Below, piece after piece: positions 2,101 through 28,821 of a DNA stretch of 32,139 bases. A program made the translations under genes and the position numbers. This DNA is from Deltaproteobacteria bacterium (GTDB lineage: Bacteria > Desulfobacterota_D > UBA1144 > Nemesobacterales > UBA2774): contig JAJCZS010000017.1 in assembly GCA_029262275.1 (NCBI GenBank), forward strand, positions 1-32,139, written 5' to 3'. Below the pieces are notes generated by a model, which saw nothing but the letters and a program-made list of their open reading frames with translations, did no database searches and was not told where the DNA came from. Numbering within the stretch: the stretch's first letter is position 1; the number at the start of each line of letters is the position of its first letter.

Positions 2101-5100
2101 ATGAGATATGCATTTAGATTTGTATTTCTCTTGTTATTAGCATTTACATTATGGACTGGCCCTGCCAAAGCCCAGGAAGGCACTGGATTGCAGGTCCTAA
2201 AATTAGGTTCGCCTGAAGCAGTTCCAGGCGGATTTATGACTTACTCTATTTTTGTTACCAACAACGGTACGAGTTTTTTCTTTGATTCCTGTGTAGCTAT
2301 TGCAGGATGTAGCGTTGTACTAACGGATGATCTGCCTGCAGATTTTCTATTTAACGAGCTTGATATAACGGCAACTAAATATTTTGCAACTTTACCGCCT
2401 GTAACAGTGCCTTGCGCTGTGGTCGCGGGGGATCTTGTTTGTGACATTGGAGATTTTGTCCCAACAAATTTTGTTGAGATAAATATTCCCGGTACAGCAA
2501 GTGCTACTCTGTCACCTGGAGATATGATCACAAACGATGTCCTGGTCGACCCAGTAGGTGGATTAACTGGACTTGGACCTGACACTGATTCGTTCGATAC
2601 AACAATAGTCAGCTCAGCCCCACAAGTTAACCTAGCTATTTTTAAAACTGATGCACCAGATCCGGTGATTGGTGAAGCAGGCAACATACTTACATATACT
2701 CTTGCTGTAACAAACAGCGGACCAGATGATGCAACAAACGTAGTTGTAACAGATTTTATACCACCTACTGCCTCATTTGATTCAGTCATGCCTGCGGGAC
2801 CTTGTTCTCACGACGGCTCACCTACTGGCGGTATAGTAACATGTACTTTCCCATCACTAGCTGCAGGGGATATAGGAATGATAACTATTACCGTTAATCC
2901 TCCTGTACTTGCAATCGGCAATCAGGATGTAGCGATACTCAATGTCGCAACAGTTACTTCTGATCAAGTCGACGGCGCTCTTAGCGACAATACTGTTGGA
3001 GAGGGAACAATAGTTACAGCACCAGTACCAAATGAAACTATATCAGATTTAATAGTAACTAAGGCTGCTCCAAATATAGTTATTCAAAATCAGGAGTTCT
3101 TCTATTCTATAGAGGTCTTCAATGTAGGTCCTGACCCAGCTGTTAATGTAACGTTAAGAGACTCGCCATTTATGAATACTACAATTAACGGAGCTGGAAT
3201 AGTTGCAAATGCGCCGATCGCTTGTTTCCCACTAGCACTTCCAAATTTCGCGTGTGATATTCTGGTGCCGATACTTCCTGGTCAATCAGTGGAGTTTCTT
3301 GTACCTGCAACCTATTCGGGCGGGCTGCCTACGCTTCCTGATCCTCTTCCGATATTTAACGTGGCTAATGTTATTTTAGGGCCAAGTAATATTCCGGACA
3401 CAATTCAAGTAGATCCAATTCCAAGTAACAATACATTTGTTAATGTTACAAATGTAGTACCTCCTCCTGCTATAATTAGCGAATCAGATCTGGTTATGAC
3501 AAAAACAGCTCCTGAAATAGTTATACAGGGTGAGAATTTCGAATACACATTGTTCGTAACTAACCTTGGAGACAATGTAGCGGAAAACGTTACTGTGACT
3601 GATATTCTTCCTCCAAGTGTTGACATAGTTACTTTACCTATGGGATGTGTAGAAATGCCTGCAATGTCAAATATTGTAGAATGCACAATTCCATCAATTG
3701 CAGTTGACACAGTAATACAGCTGATTATAGAAGTTACTCCAAATGATCTTGGTCTGATTTACAATATCGCGACCACTTCACTTGGACTTAGCAATCAGCC
3801 TAATACTCAGCAAGTAGATCCTGTACCTGGCAACAATACAGACTCGGCAGTTTCAGAGGTAATTCCTCCTCCTATAATGACTACAACCTCTAATTTGGTT
3901 GTTAAAAAGGCCGCACCAATTTTAGTCATTGAAGATAATGAGTTTGAATATGACATAGAGGTGACTAATCTTGGACCAGATCTTGCTCAAAACGTAATTC
4001 TGACAGATATCATTCCAGAAGACGTAACCTTTTCTAACTTGCCTGCAGGCTGTGGAGTAGTTGTGAATGCTCCTCCTGCAAACGATGAATTGATTTGCAA
4101 CCTTGGAGATATTGCAATGGCTCAGGTCATAAGACTTAGCATAACAGCACAATACACCGGAGCTTTCCCAGCACTTCCTGACTCGTTTGTGCTATTTAAC
4201 TTAGTAAATGTTGAGTTTGGACTGGTCGATAATTTAATGCAGATCGACCCTGAGACAAGCAATAACACAGATATCGCTCTGACCCGTATTATTGCAGAGC
4301 CACCTGCAATTAATCTTGTGGATCTATTTGTAGTTAAAACTGATTCACCAGATCCGGTTGTAACTGGAACGGACCTTACATATAACCTGTTTGTTTATAA
4401 CTTTGGTCCAAATAATGCAGAGAATGTAATCGTAACAGATACTCTGCCATCAGGTGCAGCTCTTGTGAGTGCTCCTGGTTGTGTTCCTGCAGGAAATGTA
4501 CTTACCTGTGTTATTCCACTTATACAATCTAACGGTGGTGTAGCGATTATTCCTATCATGGTTACAGCACCTCCAATACCGCCTGATGAGGAATCATTTA
4601 TGATTCTAAATTCGGCACGTGCAGATGTTGATCCATTTTTCTTACTTTCGGACAACATAATTCAATTAGACTATGCACCATCTAACAATACAGACTCAGA
4701 GAAGACAACTGTAGTTCCTGTACCACCACCAATGTCTGATCTGTTAATTCTTAAAACAGACACACCAGATCCTGTAATTGAAGATGATGTTCTGACATAC
4801 ACAATATTTGTAAAGAACACAGGTCCAGATCCTGCATTTGGAGTCCTCGTAAGTGATTGGTTACCTCAAGAAGGGCTTGATCTTGATACGGTTAACTTCA
4901 CTTTCAGCCCTAATGTAGATGGATGTATACAGGATCCAGATGTTGCTATGGAACCATATAAGGTTGAATGCTTAATTCCATCATTAGGAGTAGAAGAAAG
5001 TGCAACAATTACTGTTGCTGTTACAACACTTCCACTACCAGATGGCGTAGAGTTCTTAAACATATTCAACCTAGCAAAAGTTGAATCAATAGGGGATCTA

Positions 5101-6168
5101 ATTAATCCTCCTTCAGCTGATCCTAACCCACTAAACAATGTGGTTGTGGAATCTACACTTATTGGAGAGTTTGTGCCAATAGCTGATCTCTTTGTTATAA
5201 AGAGTGATTCCCCCGACCCTGTTTTTGTAGATCAAACTCTTACTTATGTTCTTTTCGTAAGTAACGCAGGACCAGATCCAGCTACAAATGTAGTTGTTAC
5301 AGATACTTTGCCAGATAGCGTAGACCTTATATCCGCAACACCTGACCAGGGCGTTTGTGGTGGTCTCGTAGGAGATATGATAACCTGCAATTTAGGAAAC
5401 CTAGCTGTAGGAGCATTCACAGAAATTAGGATCTTAGTTACTCCTACAATACCTGGAACAATTCTAAATGTAGCTCAGGTTATGGGTGATGAGCATGATC
5501 CAAAGTCATCAAATAACATATCACCTCAGACAACAACGGTTAATCCTAAAATATTCACTCCTCCTGACAACCCAGGAGAGCCAAATGGAAACGATATATT
5601 TGTATTGAAGTTTGTTTCCCCTAATCCTGTCGAAGTTGGTCAGGAAGTTACCTTTACAATAATAGTTGGTAACAACGGCGAATTTGGTTCTGGTGCAACC
5701 GTAGTTGACGATCTCCCTGCTGGGCTTACTTTTCTATCAGCCACAGTTAACACTGGAGATCCTTGTAATCTAGTCAATGGCGATGTTGTTTGCGATATCG
5801 GGACCATACCACCTCTAGGCCAAGGCCAGACAGTTGTGGTAGAGGTTCGTGCTATAGCCAACCAAACCGGAACCCTTCCAAATACTGCTTTCTTGGACAA
5901 TGTTCCTAATGACCCAGTCACAAATAACAATGTTTCTATTGTTGCACTGACTGTTGTTCCGGATATATCCGTTCCACAGCCACCAGCAAATCCAGATGAT
6001 GGAGATGATGGAGATGGTGGAAATGATGGCGACACTGAAGGTAGTAACAATGGTGGATGCACAGTAGCTGCGGGTTCAATTAACACCAGCAGCACAGCAA
6101 CCAACTTTGCATTACTGCTACTGCCGCTGTTAGTATTTGGATTTAGATCAATAAAAAGAAAGAAATAA
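2101..6168 (+). CDS. Giant secreted DUF11 nine-repeat surface protein with Gly-Gly-Cys C-terminal sorting tail
   Basis: Exported adhesin-like or structural surface protein of 1355 aa. The signal peptide ends at Ala-Lys-Ala (residue 24). Nine DUF11 immunoglobulin-like beta-sandwich repeats of about 110-150 aa follow. Each opens with a [SV]DL-x-[VI]-x-K-x-x[SA]P pattern, continues with T-[YF]-x-[LI]-x-V-x-N-x-G and N-V-x-[VL]-x-D-x-[LI]-P, and most end in D-P-x-x-x-NN. Each repeat has its own Cys pair (C-x8 to x14-C), consistent with one disulfide per domain. An Asp/Gly-rich linker leads to GGCTVAA (Cys1320), a hydrophobic helix (about 1337-1349) and the basic end RSIKRKK. This is a C-terminal sorting tail of the MYXO/JDVT/SYNERG-CTERM kind. 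The Shine-Dalgarno sequence is AGGGGGA. The gene stands alone, with a promoter, a long leader and a terminator. Exact tail class and ligand are unknown. Confidence 0.9.
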   Translation: MRYAFRFVFLLLLAFTLWTGPAKAQEGTGLQVLKLGSPEAVPGGFMTYSIFVTNNGTSFFFDSCVAIAGCSVVLTDDLPADFLFNELDITATKYFATLPPVTVPCAVVAGDLVCDIGDFVPTNFVEINIPGTASATLSPGDMITNDVLVDPVGGLTGLGPDTDSFDTTIVSSAPQVNLAIFKTDAPDPVIGEAGNILTYTLAVTNSGPDDATNVVVTDFIPPTASFDSVMPAGPCSHDGSPTGGIVTCTFPSLAAGDIGMITITVNPPVLAIGNQDVAILNVATVTSDQVDGALSDNTVGEGTIVTAPVPNETISDLIVTKAAPNIVIQNQEFFYSIEVFNVGPDPAVNVTLRDSPFMNTTINGAGIVANAPIACFPLALPNFACDILVPILPGQSVEFLVPATYSGGLPTLPDPLPIFNVANVILGPSNIPDTIQVDPIPSNNTFVNVTNVVPPPAIISESDLVMTKTAPEIVIQGENFEYTLFVTNLGDNVAENVTVTDILPPSVDIVTLPMGCVEMPAMSNIVECTIPSIAVDTVIQLIIEVTPNDLGLIYNIATTSLGLSNQPNTQQVDPVPGNNTDSAVSEVIPPPIMTTTSNLVVKKAAPILVIEDNEFEYDIEVTNLGPDLAQNVILTDIIPEDVTFSNLPAGCGVVVNAPPANDELICNLGDIAMAQVIRLSITAQYTGAFPALPDSFVLFNLVNVEFGLVDNLMQIDPETSNNTDIALTRIIAEPPAINLVDLFVVKTDSPDPVVTGTDLTYNLFVYNFGPNNAENVIVTDTLPSGAALVSAPGCVPAGNVLTCVIPLIQSNGGVAIIPIMVTAPPIPPDEESFMILNSARADVDPFFLLSDNIIQLDYAPSNNTDSEKTTVVPVPPPMSDLLILKTDTPDPVIEDDVLTYTIFVKNTGPDPAFGVLVSDWLPQEGLDLDTVNFTFSPNVDGCIQDPDVAMEPYKVECLIPSLGVEESATITVAVTTLPLPDGVEFLNIFNLAKVESIGDLINPPSADPNPLNNVVVESTLIGEFVPIADLFVIKSDSPDPVFVDQTLTYVLFVSNAGPDPATNVVVTDTLPDSVDLISATPDQGVCGGLVGDMITCNLGNLAVGAFTEIRILVTPTIPGTILNVAQVMGDEHDPKSSNNISPQTTTVNPKIFTPPDNPGEPNGNDIFVLKFVSPNPVEVGQEVTFTIIVGNNGEFGSGATVVDDLPAGLTFLSATVNTGDPCNLVNGDVVCDIGTIPPLGQGQTVVVEVRAIANQTGTLPNTAFLDNVPNDPVTNNNVSIVALTVVPDISVPQPPANPDDGDDGDGGNDGDTEGSNNGGCTVAAGSINTSSTATNFALLLLPLLVFGFRSIKRKK

Positions 6169-13013: not shown

Positions 13014-14063
13014 TCACTTCCTGAAATAAGGCAATATCTCCTTAGAAATTACCTCAAACGATTTTTGCTTGTCTGGACTAAAATCTCTAAAGAAAAAATG
13101 ATCCACACCAGCTTCAACATATTCTTCAATCCTTTTTATCACATCTTCCTTTGATCCAGCAATTACAAAATCCATTACCATATCACGGGAGTAGTACTTT
13201 TGTCCCATCTCTCTAAATTTTCTGAGCATATCAGTATCATTAGGCATGATCTTAGTGTATTCAAGCCCCTTGTACTCCTCATCAATCTCTATATCATAGC
13301 CCGCTTGAGACAGCAGTTCAGGCCATATAAGAGCATGTTTAATAGGCTCAAGGGTTGAATATGCCTCATCTTGATTAGATGCGATTGAGGTAAATATAAA
13401 AAGGGTCTTCTCTATTGGCCCTAGGCTACTATCTCTATTTTTTGCACCTTCATCTACTGCAAGAGACTTCTCCCTAAAAACTCTTGACGGCATTGCATTT
13501 GTAACCCAACCATCACCATATTCACCAGCAACCCTGAGCGCCCTTGGGCCTGTTGCAGCAATATAAATGGGCACGCCTTTATCCGAGACAGGTTGTATCC
13601 TAAGCTCAGCGTCACTTAGCTTGTAGAATTCTCCTTCAAAGTTAACTGGCTCTCCAGTCCACAGAGCTCTCATTATTTTTACTGATTCAACTACTCGTGT
13701 AAGAGGTTTATTCCAGGCTATCCCATAGGGATCAAGATTCATTTTTTCTCCGTATCCTAAACACACAAAACATCTGCCGGCGGAGATATGATCCACAGTG
13801 GCCAGCCTTTGAGCAAATATTGCAGGGTGAATCCTATGTGCATCACCTACGCTACCAAGATTTATAGAGTTTGTCTGAGTAGATGCGGCCGTTATAACAG
13901 ACCAGACCTCTGGAGTTAGTTTCTTGGCCATAAAAACTACATGATCAGGAAACCAAACAGCTTCAAAATCTGCTTCTTCAGCTTTCTTAGAGAAATCAAT
14001 TAGCGCTTGAACAGACTCTCCGGGCAGCGGTGCGGATATGCCGAATTTAAGAGTTTTAGACAT
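13014..14063 (-). CDS. LLM-class flavin/F420-dependent oxidoreductase
   Basis: Luciferase-like TIM-barrel oxidoreductase related to methylene-tetrahydromethanopterin reductase and F420-dependent enzymes. The start at ATG 14061-14063 is chosen because AAGGAG lies 8 nt upstream and it begins at the conserved KFGISAPL strand; an in-frame GTG 24 nt further up has no such site. Family signatures are AEEADFEAVWFPDHV, INLGSVG, FAQRLATVDHISAGR, GLYGE-like CLGYGEKM, and ALWTGEPVNFEGEFYKL. 349 aa. It is the first gene of an operon with the hot-dog thioesterase, hinting at a step on an acyl or CoA-linked substrate. FMN versus F420 use is not decidable here. Confidence 0.88.
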   Translation of the reverse strand: MSKTLKFGISAPLPGESVQALIDFSKKAEEADFEAVWFPDHVVFMAKKLTPEVWSVITAASTQTNSINLGSVGDAHRIHPAIFAQRLATVDHISAGRCFVCLGYGEKMNLDPYGIAWNKPLTRVVESVKIMRALWTGEPVNFEGEFYKLSDAELRIQPVSDKGVPIYIAATGPRALRVAGEYGDGWVTNAMPSRVFREKSLAVDEGAKNRDSSLGPIEKTLFIFTSIASNQDEAYSTLEPIKHALIWPELLSQAGYDIEIDEEYKGLEYTKIMPNDTDMLRKFREMGQKYYSRDMVMDFVIAGSKEDVIKRIEEYVEAGVDHFFFRDFSPDKQKSFEVISKEILPYFRK

Positions 14064-14131
14064 ATTTTTCTCTCCTTTTGTGCTCACTTTCAGCCTCCAA
14101 ATTATACATCATCTAAATTTAACTTTTCATC

Positions 14132-16543: not shown

Positions 16544-16571
16544 TTGACCCGAGACAGGGCTATGCTAAACT
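16544..16571 (+). promoter_or_regulatory. Predicted promoter of the heme gene cluster
   Basis: -35 TTGACC (16544-16549), 16-nt spacer, -10 TAAACT (16566-16571). Transcription would start near 16578, only about 9 nt before the ATG at 16587, so the leader is almost absent. No strong Shine-Dalgarno sequence is present. Confidence 0.5.
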
Positions 16572-16586: not shown

Positions 16587-18554
16587 ATGTATGATCAAAT
16601 TATGAAAAGCCAATATAGTTTTGAAGGACTAAAAGTAACTGCTTTTGAAAGCCGAAGAGCAAATGAAATAGAGAAACTTATACTCTATCATGGCGGTGTT
16701 CCACGGGTAGCTCCGTCTATGAGAGAAGTACCTCTCTCCGAATCTAGTGAAGCGTTTAAATTTGCAAAGGAACTTCTAGCAGGGAATTTTGACATGGTTA
16801 TTCTTATGACAGGAGTGGGCACCCGAGCTCTTGTCAAAGCAGTGGCCGAGAAATATGCGGTTAATGATTTTATAAAAGCACTTAGAAAAACGACTATTGT
16901 AGCGCGTGGCCCCAAGCCCGTAGCAGCACTCCGTGAGATGAAACTGAAGGTCGATATAGTCGTTCCTGAGCCTAATACCTGGCGGGACATTGTTGCTACA
17001 TTAGAAAATGAAGCAGACATAAAAGGGAAAAAGGTTGCGGTTCAGGAATATGGAATTTCTAACAAGGAATTTATAAGTGCTCTTAGAAAAAAAGGAGCAA
17101 AAGTTACTAAAGTACCCATCTACAAATGGGCTCTTCCAGAAGATATAGGCCCATTAAAAGACGCTATAAAATCTATAGTCCTTGCAAAAGAAGACATCGC
17201 ACTATTTACAAGCTCTCAACAGATCTATCATTTATTTGAGGTAGCCTCAAAAATGGGATCTAAGAAAAAACTTATGGGTGGCTTAAAAAAAACTGTTATA
17301 GGATCAATAGGACCTACTACTTCTGAAACACTACATAGATTTGGCTTATCTGCAGATTATGAACCGGACAGCCCTAAGATGGGGAATCTCATACGAGAGA
17401 TTGCCAGGATTGGCCCCACACTAGTTAATAAGAAACGCACCGCAAATAAAAACGGGGTCTCTACTAGCAACTGGCGAAAGGTAGATATGATCTGGAGCAA
17501 AGGGAGTCATAAAAAGCGAAAAGAGATCACAAGAAATTCAGTATTTATGAAAGCCTGCCGTTTGGAAAAAACAGATTACACCCCCGTTTGGCTCATGCGT
17601 CAAGCTGGCAGATATATGCGGGAATATAGAGATATTAGATCAAAAATGACTTTTCTGGAACTATGTAAGACCCCAGAGCTTGCGGCTGAAGTAACTCTTA
17701 GCGCGGTGGATAGATTAGATGTAGATGCGGCAATTATCTTTGCCGACATACTGCTCATAGTGGAACCCCTAGGAGTCGGTCTTGAATTCTCAAAAGGCGA
17801 AGGTCCTAGAATAAAAAGGCCTGTCCGCTCAGGCAAAGCTGTTGACCGAATAAAAGACTTTGATCCAGAGTCTCTTCAGCATGTTTATGATGCGCTTAAA
17901 ATTACAAGACGTGCACTTGATCCAAATAAGGCCCTGATCGGATTTGCGGGCGCGCCGTTTACAGTAGCTTCATATATGATCGAAGGTGGCGGATCAAGAA
18001 ATTATGAGAACACTAAGGGATTAATGTATAAAGACCCCGGTGCCTGGCACGTAATGATGGAAAAACTTACCTTAGCCACAACAACCTACTTAAACAATCA
18101 AATTGATGCTGGAGCAGATGTCGTGCAGCTATTTGATAGCTGGGTTGGGTGTCTTTCAAGAGACGACTACAAAGAATTTGTTCTGCCCCATATGAAAGAG
18201 CTTGTATCTAAAATTGAGAAAGAAACTCCGGTTATACATTTCGGCACTGGAACAGGAGCCTTGTTGGATATGATTAAGGAATCAGGCAGTCAGGTATTAG
18301 GGCTTGACTGGAGGGTTGATTTGGCCAAAGCCTGGAGGCAAATAGGATATGATACAGCTGTTCAAGGGAACCTGGACCCTGTAGTACTTTTTTCAACCCA
18401 TATGGAAATCCGGAAACGGGCTAAAAAGATTTTAGATAAAGCAAAAGGAAGACCAGGATACATTTTCAACCTTGGCCATGGAATACTTCCAAAAACACCT
18501 GTTGATAATGTACTGGCACTTGTAGATTTTGTTCACGAATACACTCAAAAATAA
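16587..18554 (+). CDS. hemE: Fused uroporphyrinogen-III synthase / uroporphyrinogen decarboxylase (HemD-HemE)
   Basis: Two consecutive heme enzymes in one 655-aa chain. Residues about 12-280 match HemD-type synthases (cyclises hydroxymethylbilane): GLKVTAFESRRANE, GKKVAVQEYG, IALFTSSQQI, IGSIGPTTSETL. A basic linker (about 281-318) leads to a complete HemE domain (decarboxylates uroporphyrinogen III to coproporphyrinogen III). It has PVWLMRQAGRYMREYR (333-348, Arg338 and Arg342), IIFADIL with Asp387, GFAGAPFTVASYM, LFDSWVG and NLGHGILP. The ATG at 16587 is preferred over a TTG 6 nt earlier; ATG 16602 is possible. An internal ATG at 17487, preceded by AAAGG, could yield free HemE. It is followed by hemH after 17 nt. 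Confidence 0.9.
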   Translation: MYDQIMKSQYSFEGLKVTAFESRRANEIEKLILYHGGVPRVAPSMREVPLSESSEAFKFAKELLAGNFDMVILMTGVGTRALVKAVAEKYAVNDFIKALRKTTIVARGPKPVAALREMKLKVDIVVPEPNTWRDIVATLENEADIKGKKVAVQEYGISNKEFISALRKKGAKVTKVPIYKWALPEDIGPLKDAIKSIVLAKEDIALFTSSQQIYHLFEVASKMGSKKKLMGGLKKTVIGSIGPTTSETLHRFGLSADYEPDSPKMGNLIREIARIGPTLVNKKRTANKNGVSTSNWRKVDMIWSKGSHKKRKEITRNSVFMKACRLEKTDYTPVWLMRQAGRYMREYRDIRSKMTFLELCKTPELAAEVTLSAVDRLDVDAAIIFADILLIVEPLGVGLEFSKGEGPRIKRPVRSGKAVDRIKDFDPESLQHVYDALKITRRALDPNKALIGFAGAPFTVASYMIEGGGSRNYENTKGLMYKDPGAWHVMMEKLTLATTTYLNNQIDAGADVVQLFDSWVGCLSRDDYKEFVLPHMKELVSKIEKETPVIHFGTGTGALLDMIKESGSQVLGLDWRVDLAKAWRQIGYDTAVQGNLDPVVLFSTHMEIRKRAKKILDKAKGRPGYIFNLGHGILPKTPVDNVLALVDFVHEYTQK

Positions 18555-18571: not shown

Positions 18572-19495
18572 ATGTCCAAAGAATTTGATGCTATTTTGAT
18601 GATAGGATATGGAGCACCTGAGAGGGTAGAGGATATACGTCCTTTCCTTCAGAATGTAGCTAAAGGGCGCCCTATACCTCCAGACAGACTTGAAGAAGTC
18701 GCACATCACTATGAGCTCTTTGGTGGCAAGTCTCCTCTTAATGAATACACATATAAGCAGGCATCTGGAGTACAAAACAAGCTTTCAGAATATGGACATA
18801 ATTTGCCAGTATATGTAGGAATGAGAAATTGGCACCCACTAATCCCTGATACTATTAAAGAAATGTCCGAGAAAAGACATAAAAATGTTATTGGTATGAT
18901 TATGGCTGCTCACCAATCTGATGCCAGCTGGGAGAGATATCAAAGAGATGTGGCTGAGGCATTAGAGGAGTTAGGTATCGATATGCATTTTGAATATACC
19001 CCTCCCCTTTTTGACCATCCACTTTTCATAGAGAATTCTGCTGACCGTGTTCAGGATTGTTTAAATGAGATACCAGAGGAACAATATCCAGAAACTATTA
19101 TCTTATTTACGGCCCATAGCATCCCCGTACCCATGGCGGAAGCTTCGCCTTACGTTGAGCAATTGAGCACTACCGCAAAATTAATAGCTGAAAAATTAAA
19201 CTATGATAATTGGAGACTTGTGTATCAGAGCAGAAGTGGCAGGCCAACTGACCCGTGGCTTGAGCCCGATGTGTGTGATGTGATTGAGGAGATTTCAAAA
19301 GACGGAGTTAAAAACGTAATAGCTCAGCCTATAGGTTTTATCTGCGACCATATTGAGGTGCTATTTGATATTGGAGTTGAAGCTCAAGAAGTGTCAGATG
19401 AGACCGGGATAAAATTGCTCAGAGCAAAAACTGTAAACGACGATCCAAAATTTATCGAAGCCATGGCAGATGTTGTACAAAAGATGATGAAGTAG
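18572..19495 (+). CDS. hemH: Ferrochelatase
   Basis: Inserts ferrous iron into a porphyrin at the end of heme synthesis. 307 aa, close to the compact Bacillus-type enzyme. The catalytic His182 is in FTAHSIPVPM and Glu262 in GFICDHIEVLFDIG. Also present are the N-terminal strand LMIGYGAPE, HHYELFGGKSPLNEYT and the YVGMRNWHP segment. AGGAG precedes the ATG. No hemG/hemY or HemQ gene lies beside it. So whether it acts on protoporphyrin IX or coproporphyrin III cannot be settled from the window. It is the second gene of the heme operon, with the SRPBCC gene 8 nt downstream. Confidence 0.94.
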   Translation: MSKEFDAILMIGYGAPERVEDIRPFLQNVAKGRPIPPDRLEEVAHHYELFGGKSPLNEYTYKQASGVQNKLSEYGHNLPVYVGMRNWHPLIPDTIKEMSEKRHKNVIGMIMAAHQSDASWERYQRDVAEALEELGIDMHFEYTPPLFDHPLFIENSADRVQDCLNEIPEEQYPETIILFTAHSIPVPMAEASPYVEQLSTTAKLIAEKLNYDNWRLVYQSRSGRPTDPWLEPDVCDVIEEISKDGVKNVIAQPIGFICDHIEVLFDIGVEAQEVSDETGIKLLRAKTVNDDPKFIEAMADVVQKMMK

Positions 19496-23703: not shown

Positions 23704-24618
23704 TCAGTTATTTATGGCTGGGATTATTTCTTTTGAGACAACCTCAATAGTCTTGAATATACCATCAAGATTTTCACTTACCGGGTCTAAGACTATATGT
23801 GAAACTCCTATTTCATCATAAAGTCTTATAATGCTTATTATTTCATCTACACTTCCCCGAAGCAGGTAAGGCGGGTCATCACCGTCAGTACTCTCATTAT
23901 CTATATTAAAATCACCGCCAATAATATCTAGTCTGTTTCTAACGGAATAAGTAAAATTAGAGAGGTGCTTTCCTTTTTGATATGCAAACTGCTCTAATTT
24001 TGAGATTCCATCCTTAACATCATTAGGACTAACCCAGGTAGGCTGCCACCCATCTCCATACTCCACAGCTCTTTTTATCGCGAAGTCGCTTGAGCCTGCA
24101 ATAAATATTGGAGGATGAGGCTTTGTATATGGCTTTGGGTAAAATTGGATATTAGAGAAGCTGCAAAACTCACCTTCAAACTTTGGATCATCACTAGTCC
24201 ATAACTCTTTTATGGCAGATATATACTCGTTAGTCCTGGAGCCTCTTTTATCGAAAGGAACCGAAAGAGCTTCATACTCCTCCTTCATCCATCCAGGTCC
24301 AACGCCAAAAATCACCCTACCCTCTGATAACATATCCAATGTGGCAATCATCTTTGCCACCACCACTGGGTTTCGATACGGAAGGATTATAACGCTTGTG
24401 CCTAAACTTATCGTAGAAGTTTCGGATGCAATATATGAGAGCAACATGAAGGGATCGTAGAAAACCTCGCTGAACGAACCTAGATGTCTCTTGGGCATAA
24501 CAACATGGTCACTAACCCATATTGAATCAAAACCTAGATTCTCAGCAGTTCTAGCTATCTCTACATTATCTTTAGCTTCAAGAGACAAACGTATTGGTAG
24601 ACAGATTCCAAATTTCAT
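23704..24618 (-). CDS. LLM-class F420-dependent oxidoreductase (TIGR03619-like)
   Basis: 304-aa luciferase-like TIM barrel. It starts with MKFGICLPIR, then AENLGFDSIWVSDHVV, SLGTSVIILPYRNPVVVAKMIATLDMLSEGRVIFGVGPGW, RTNEYISAIKELW and HPPIFIAGSSDFAIKRAVEYGDGW. These fit the probable F420-dependent subset. With the gene at 13014-14063 it gives two such enzymes in the window. It begins 20 nt after the tspO stop, so the two may share a transcript. No Shine-Dalgarno sequence is clear. The substrate is unknown. Confidence 0.88.
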   Translation of the reverse strand: MKFGICLPIRLSLEAKDNVEIARTAENLGFDSIWVSDHVVMPKRHLGSFSEVFYDPFMLLSYIASETSTISLGTSVIILPYRNPVVVAKMIATLDMLSEGRVIFGVGPGWMKEEYEALSVPFDKRGSRTNEYISAIKELWTSDDPKFEGEFCSFSNIQFYPKPYTKPHPPIFIAGSSDFAIKRAVEYGDGWQPTWVSPNDVKDGISKLEQFAYQKGKHLSNFTYSVRNRLDIIGGDFNIDNESTDGDDPPYLLRGSVDEIISIIRLYDEIGVSHIVLDPVSENLDGIFKTIEVVSKEIIPAINN

Positions 24619-24638: not shown

Positions 24639-25097
24639 CTATTTATTCAAATGCCAAATGTAATAGTTAAGAACTGTCGCAAACGAGACCCAAGCTATGT
24701 ATGGGACTAGCAAAACTCCAGCCAAGGTATTTAGCTTCCAGAACATAATTAGGGTAACTAAAATTAAAACCCAAAGTGCAATTATATCAATTAGGGCTAG
24801 ACCTATGTCATGAAGACCAAAAAAGAACCAAGACCATAGGGCGTTTAATACCAACTGGGCAATAAAAAGAGAGATCGGAACTGCTGCCATCTTTAGCCCA
24901 AAGTTTTTCCAAATAATCCAAACTGAAACTCCCATTAACAAATAGAGAATTGTCCAAACAGGTCCGAATATCCAGTTAGGAGGATTCCACTCTGGTTTAG
25001 CTAAGGTTTGAAACCATTCACCGGGACCAAATTGAGATCCAATAAGTGCTGGTATGAAGCAAATCAATATCCAAATTACAAGACCTATTATTTTCAT
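24639..25097 (-). CDS. tspO: TspO/MBR family tryptophan-rich sensory protein
   Basis: 152-aa five-helix membrane protein. The family binds porphyrins, heme and cholesterol-like ligands; bacterial members tune tetrapyrrole and oxidative-stress responses. Typical pieces are WFQTLAKPEWNPPNWIFGPVWTILYLLMG and ALWSWFFFGLHDIGLALIDIIALW, with many Trp residues. TATACT (25105-25110, minus) ends 7 nt before the ATG and there is no Shine-Dalgarno sequence, so the message is probably leaderless. The presence of heme-synthesis genes 6 kb away on the same segment fits the ligand class. Confidence 0.94.
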   Translation of the reverse strand: MKIIGLVIWILICFIPALIGSQFGPGEWFQTLAKPEWNPPNWIFGPVWTILYLLMGVSVWIIWKNFGLKMAAVPISLFIAQLVLNALWSWFFFGLHDIGLALIDIIALWVLILVTLIMFWKLNTLAGVLLVPYIAWVSFATVLNYYIWHLNK

Positions 25098-28029: not shown

Positions 28030-28821
28030 TTAACCGCGCGCTTGTTTAACCATCTCAACTATAACTTTTCTGCATTCTTCTGAATTTTTCACTTCCCTCA
28101 AAAATCCTATCCGTCTGCTGTAGAACTCATCCCCAGCTTTTATTCTCACTTGCATGCCTAATCTGTCAACCGCAGTCATTGATGCTTCCTCGGCATCTAC
28201 TTTTGTAAATTCTTTAGCCAATAGCACTAAAGCTTCTGCGTGATCTTCATTCATATGCTGTATTATTCCAGCTGCTGAGTCGGCAAGAGGGTCTACATTT
28301 GCTTCATAGTAATCAGAGACAGTGACCCAGCCCATAGCTCCAAAGCCGCCCACAAAATATATGTCCTTTATATCCATACGGTAGAATGAGAAATCGTCAA
28401 AATCTACCCAGTAACTTGCGTTTTTATATCGTGATAAGTATAGCTCTCTAACCTCAGAAAGTTCTTTCTCTGAAACTTTGGTAGTCTCTCCCATTAGAGT
28501 AACTCTTGAAGCGTCTAAGGGATCACCACCTGAATCAGTCTGAGAGATAAACAAGCTAGACTTGCCATCTCTAATCAGGTTATGCGTATGCATTGCCATA
28601 GTGCTGATTAAAAAAGTGGGCCGACCTTTTTCATCCAAACCATATGGCATCATTGAGCCAAATGGCCAGTCGGGGTGTTTAGTAGAGAGGGTTGATAGCG
28701 TTCCCATCTGAGTTCGATGTACAAGTGTCCGCACCCGCTCAGCATATGTGGGTTCGGGAATAGCTGGTTCATCTTTTGATGTTGTTGTATAGCCGTGTGA
28801 TCTCGATGCGGGTTTGGTCAT
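28030..28821 (-). CDS. HugZ/PPOX-type FMN-binding split-barrel protein with DUF2470 domain
   Basis: 263 aa. Residues about 25-170 form the split-barrel pyridoxamine-phosphate-oxidase-like domain (TLSTLSTKHPDWPFGSMMPY, TFLISTMAMHTHNL, SRVTLMGET). Residues about 180-260 are DUF2470, starting ADSAAGIIQHMNEDHAEAL with the HMNEDH motif at 189-194. This domain pair occurs in HugZ heme oxygenase-like proteins and in the plant glutamyl-tRNA-reductase-binding protein, so a heme-related role is likely. TATAAT (28827-28832, minus) is 5 nt before the ATG and no Shine-Dalgarno sequence is seen: a candidate leaderless start. It is divergent from obgE. Confidence 0.88.
   Translation of the reverse strand: MTKPASRSHGYTTTSKDEPAIPEPTYAERVRTLVHRTQMGTLSTLSTKHPDWPFGSMMPYGLDEKGRPTFLISTMAMHTHNLIRDGKSSLFISQTDSGGDPLDASRVTLMGETTKVSEKELSEVRELYLSRYKNASYWVDFDDFSFYRMDIKDIYFVGGFGAMGWVTVSDYYEANVDPLADSAAGIIQHMNEDHAEALVLLAKEFTKVDAEEASMTAVDRLGMQVRIKAGDEFYSRRIGFLREVKNSEECRKVIVEMVKQARG

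Follow-up and report, generated by a model that had tools for sequence, protein, structure and literature searches.

A HemD-HemE fusion coexisting with CobA-HemD in Dadabacteria and in scattered other bacteria

Uroporphyrinogen-III synthase (UroS, HemD) and uroporphyrinogen decarboxylase (UroD, HemE) are encoded as one chain in the genome of a bacterium of the order Nemesobacterales (2.48 Mb, 97% complete). The gene resides in the window, as we call the whole stretch of 32,139 nucleotides analysed, and is an uninterrupted open frame of 655 codons. The routes to heme, siroheme and B12 diverge at uroporphyrinogen III, and the fusion coexists with a second HemD, fused to the uroporphyrinogen III methyltransferase CobA. 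The HemD-HemE chain is probably a bifunctional UroS-UroD serving heme, CobA-HemD serving siroheme and B12.

The features of the locus are listed in Table 1. HemD and HemE had been described from the sequence-only reading as two complete domains in one frame, and domain searches bear this out, as both are full-length and above cut-off. Pfam HEM4 spans residues 27–269 (127.9 bits, cut-off 27.5; profile positions 2–230 of 231), and URO-D residues 316–652 (450.1 bits, cut-off 23.9). The equivalog TIGR01464 (hemE) scores 426.7 bits, above its cut-off of 302.95, and invariant columns of the URO-D family are kept in the alignment. The HemE half is thus predicted to be a standard, full-length UroD, with a decarboxylase role assigned by family. 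Neither a TP_methylase domain, found in the separate CobA-HemD protein, nor a C-terminal winged-helix DNA-binding domain was found by Pfam in the chain, the C-terminal half of which is URO-D. The protein measures 655 aa from ATG 16587 and 650 aa from ATG 16602; the latter is more likely the start, because no in-frame ATG occurs upstream of it in the same-genus relatives inspected.

Table 1. Features of the hemDE-hemH locus, in window coordinates
Feature	Position	Strand	Basis
HemD-HemE fusion gene	16587..18554	+	open frame; Pfam HEM4 and URO-D; same-genus orthologues
HEM4 / HemD domain, type-2 subfamily	16665..17393	+	131 bits on DNA; conserved residues
Conserved linker motif KKRxA..NGVxTxxWxRxxM[VI]W	17427..17495	+	residues 281–303; alignments, DNA check, AlphaFold2
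URO-D / HemE domain	17532..18542	+	residues 316–652, Pfam
hemH ferrochelatase	18572..19495	+	Pfam and NCBIfam matches; adjacency also in relatives

The hemH gene, preceded by AGGAG, lies 17 bp downstream of the fusion, and the two likely belong to the same operon. A promoter-like string, TTGACC-16-TAAACT, is found at 16544–16571; in a scan its frequency was no higher than expected by chance. Two other genes reside in a zone 6–10 kb from the operon. One encodes a TspO/MBR protein (24639–25097, minus strand), the other a CREG/PNPOx + DUF2470 protein (28030–28821, minus strand), the architecture of which resembles that of HugZ-type heme-degrading proteins. The window also encodes two luciferase-like monooxygenases (13014–14087 and 23704–24618, both minus strand). 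The former resembles F420-dependent families, its best NCBIfam match being methylene-H4MPT reductase, below cut-off, which hints at F420 use. The gene at 2101–6168 (plus strand) encodes 1355 aa that include seven DUF11 repeats, probably a cell-surface protein.

The two domains are joined by a linker (residues 281–318) that is basic, as had been noticed, with 12 K/R and 2 D/E residues. The linker motif of Table 1 was found in nearly all Dadabacteria fusions, as in the shortened proteins of genomes G168 and G305 described below; it is missing, in alignments, from the fusions of Planctomycetes and of G281, G207, G345, G114, G262 and G088. In the AlphaFold2 model of the full chain (32-sequence alignment; mean pLDDT 90.2, pTM 0.83) residues 281–310 have pLDDT values of 80–91, and the linker is accordingly predicted to be ordered; the relative orientation of the two domains is moderately supported by the model. 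Compared with PDB folds, the predicted HemD domain matches Thermus UroS, the HemE domain UROD structures.

The motif includes Met301, encoded by ATG 17487 and invariant in the aligned Dadabacteria fusions. ATG 17487, with AAAGG 5 nt upstream, had been proposed as an internal start releasing free HemE, and both elements are present in the window. That one gene yields two products, full-length HemD-HemE and free HemE, is nevertheless scarcely credible. None of the six same-genus relatives checked at the DNA level has the AAAGG, only 4 of the 37 sequences that contain the MxW motif carry any SD-like string at the site, and the free HemE of genome G019 starts downstream of the Met301 motif. The internal start is unsupported because the SD-like sequence varies, while the peptide motif WxRxxM[VI]W, set in the segment predicted to be ordered, survives even in proteins with eroded HemD. 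Judged from the alignments, the linker motif is conserved as protein.

Fused and split genes were surveyed in 44 genomes of the order (G000–G043, G000 being the genome of the window). Full-length HemD-HemE was found in 37, with 53–84% identity in the 36 others. Fragments of the fusion are present in three (G012, G017 and G043, at contig edges in the last two), G019 has a free HemE, and the fusion was not detected in G013, G015 and G026. A sequencing error, such as the loss of a stop codon in the linker, is ruled out, since the frame is shared by dozens of independent assemblies. Outside Dadabacteria, full-length fusions were identified in G281, G207, G345, G114, G262 and G088. Of 294 genomes sampled from the phylum to which the planctomycete Aeoliella belongs, 5 have the full-length fusion, which is also present at the Planctomycetaceae locus L012 and at locus L011. 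It recurs sporadically outside its order, Planctomycetes included. The 949-aa frame of G114 was considered as a HemC-HemD-HemE triple fusion and discarded, as the additional N-terminus carries no Pfam domain and looks like translated upstream sequence.

A single origin without later breaks is rejected by the HemE tree, in which fused, half-fused and G019 HemEs do not form one clade (AU p = 0.002). The HemD tree groups fused HemDs together, with one free Deinococcus HemD among them. The trees fit one fusion event followed by losses and transfers; repeated independent fusion may be an alternative origin. In Deinococcus plasmids this type-2 HemD is encoded directly after nirBD (L178 5992–6825); given its position inside the fused group, it may derive from a fused HemD that was set free and put to use in another context.

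In the genome of the window the second HemD is a 510-aa TP_methylase-HEM4 protein (CobA-HemD), encoded on another contig (L002 520–2052). CobA-HemD is the second HemD also in all of 13 further fusion genomes examined, five from Dadabacteria (G001, G005, G016, G018, G029) and eight from other bacteria (G281, G207, G345, G114, G262, G088, the Aeoliella genome G387, and G388, the genome of L012). CobA-HemD is thus present in 8/8 fusion genomes outside Dadabacteria, versus 2/6 hand-picked free-HemE genomes; in the other four, the frame that encodes HemD does not include CobA. The contrast is suggestive only, the sample being small and phylogenetically uncorrected. The hemC gene is found once in the genome of the window; in a search of 20 genomes, 19 had exactly one copy. 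The fused HemD was never the sole HemD in any genome examined. A canonical HemD being always present, activity of the fused HemD is not required by the absence of another; many genomes with CobA-HemD do without any second HemD, which counts against the bifunctional reading.

HemE-fused and CobA-fused HemDs are fully separated in the trees (support 100/100). The former branch with T. thermophilus UroS and with paralogues from Bacillus, Azospirillum, Deinococcus and Nocardia. The TGVGxR, RGxK and QxYG signatures are common to the fused HemD and Thermus UroS, as is Tyr179 (codon 17121–17123), which aligns with the active-site tyrosine position and is Y in 47/47 aligned HemDs. A product-bound UroS structure is referred to within PMC7242693. 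The active-site residues failed as a test of catalysis, as a NnaR-like Nocardia protein carries the same ones, tyrosine included. This type-2 HemD features a C-terminal extension resembling, by eye, the NnaR winged helix; in G194 a type-2 HemD is encoded beside cobA. Since the type-2 subfamily holds both Thermus UroS and the inactive NnaR, neither subfamily nor residues settle the activity of the fused HemD. In same-genus pairs with estimable dS, dN/dS measures ~0.07–0.10 for the HemD half and 0.02–0.05 for HemE, rough values because dS is near saturation; the HemD half is under purifying selection, somewhat less constrained than HemE.

The main rival reading is that the HemD half is a pseudo-UroS, which would bind hydroxymethylbilane (HMB) or uroporphyrinogen III, or just stabilise HemE through the linker, and would regulate or feed HemE, CobA-HemD being the sole UroS. 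The constant presence of a canonical HemD agrees with it. So does the nearest NCBIfam family of the fused HemD, PRK07239 (153.7 bits, below the cut-off of 273), a family of HemD proteins with DNA-binding regulator domains which also counts against the bifunctional reading: it comprises NnaR-like proteins, and in Streptomyces NnaR reportedly shows no UroS activity (PMC6277429, PMC11162112). The rival reading is held to be unlikely, because in Dadabacteria a full two-lobed HemD is maintained under purifying selection, and a pseudo-enzyme would not need all the signature residues shared with Thermus UroS.

Losses of the HemD half weigh in the opposite direction. In G019, a one-contig genome, HemE-HemH is kept and the HemD half is gone. 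In G023, of the same genus, the chain is still fused, the HemD branch is long (1.07–1.13), and signature residues are altered (TATG, QxSG). In G168 and G305 the HemD part is much shortened and HEM4 undetected, and remnant, linker motif and HemE still make one chain. In UroS one lobe is inserted in the other, and the shortening probably reflects loss of the inserted lobe, leaving a one-lobed remnant. The G168 and G305 proteins, from one genus (L134 3967–5472, L135 3783–5345), are a natural domain-deletion variant, in which a HemD remnant is joined to HemE. Deletion of most of HemD in these two genomes and its disappearance from G019 count against the bifunctional reading, and are as expected if the HemD half were a pseudo-UroS.

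Evidence for the bifunctional reading comes from the compact f8 Dadabacteria (~1 Mb). HemE, HemH and fused HemD were all missing in the 13 genomes searched, yet these retain a single HEM4 frame, matching CobA-HemD in size; 6 of the 7 f8 genomes tested contain hemC. The f8 genomes (G044–G057), having neither HemE nor HemH, may rely on heme import or on another synthesis route. Intact fusions, the eroded-HemD lineage, the species without the HemD half and compact relatives which lack the heme side and keep CobA-HemD make a set of natural controls.

Read as a bifunctional enzyme, the fusion would act as follows. In the N-terminal type-2 UroS domain HMB would be cyclised to uroporphyrinogen III, which the UroD domain of the same chain would decarboxylate to coproporphyrinogen III, toward HemH. 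CobA-fused HemD would supply siroheme and B12. HMB from the single HemC would be divided at the UroS step between two synthases, one joined to the first committed enzyme of the heme branch and the other to that of the competing siroheme/B12 branch. From the arrangement of the genes and the conservation of the protein we infer catalysis by the fused HemD, hand-over of the substrate and dedication to a branch. The conserved pairing of the two fusions suggests a separate, committed supply of the shared intermediate for each branch. Channelling of uroporphyrinogen III by the fusion is plausible; as a CobA-HemD copy resides elsewhere in the genome, branch allocation is a more specific idea. Tentatively, and with some doubt, two HemD subfamilies, in CobA-HemD1 and HemD2-HemE, could set the flux to siroheme/B12 versus heme before the branch-point metabolite is free, HemD2-HemE being kept where CobA has captured HemD1. 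A cell with one UroS per branch would, if real, offer a clean natural test of whether fusion controls branch flux.

The fusion could also be a neutral joining of neighbouring operon genes, with both halves active and a covalent link of no special effect on flux. Close relatives do have HemE as a free protein, as do most of the genomes sampled outside Dadabacteria that gave a HemE match, and G019 shows that the link is dispensable. Neutral joining is nonetheless highly improbable, as the link is retained across the whole order, the linker is conserved and predicted to be ordered, and the fusion is invariably paired with CobA-HemD in the genomes examined.

HemD fusions are already known as a kind, and the HemD-HemE pairing appears new; no description of such a chain was found in the literature searched, which covered few subscription journals. 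Like HemD-HemE, CobA-HemD joins HemD to a consumer of its product, and in the same genome, but the partner is an enzyme of siroheme/B12 synthesis and its HemD forms the C-terminal part and belongs to the other subfamily. T. thermophilus UroS (PDB 3d8n, which we take to be the product-bound enzyme of Schubert et al. 2008, 3d8r-t, 1wcw, 1wcx, 1wd7) is the best PDB match of the fused HemD in both sequence and fold; it differs in being a free enzyme, with ~24% identity to the fused HemD. The free HemE of hemE-hemH(-hemY) clusters is likewise a standard UroD encoded beside hemH, but has no HemD half. HemC-HemD, an entry in a survey of fusions (PMC4921024), also joins HemD to a neighbouring pathway enzyme, which however acts before UroS, whereas HemE acts after it. 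NnaR-type regulators (PRK07239) share with HemD-HemE an N-terminal type-2 HemD, the second HemD of the genome, in a two-domain protein, but are transcription regulators reported to be UroS-inactive, with a C-terminal DNA-binding domain in place of HemE.
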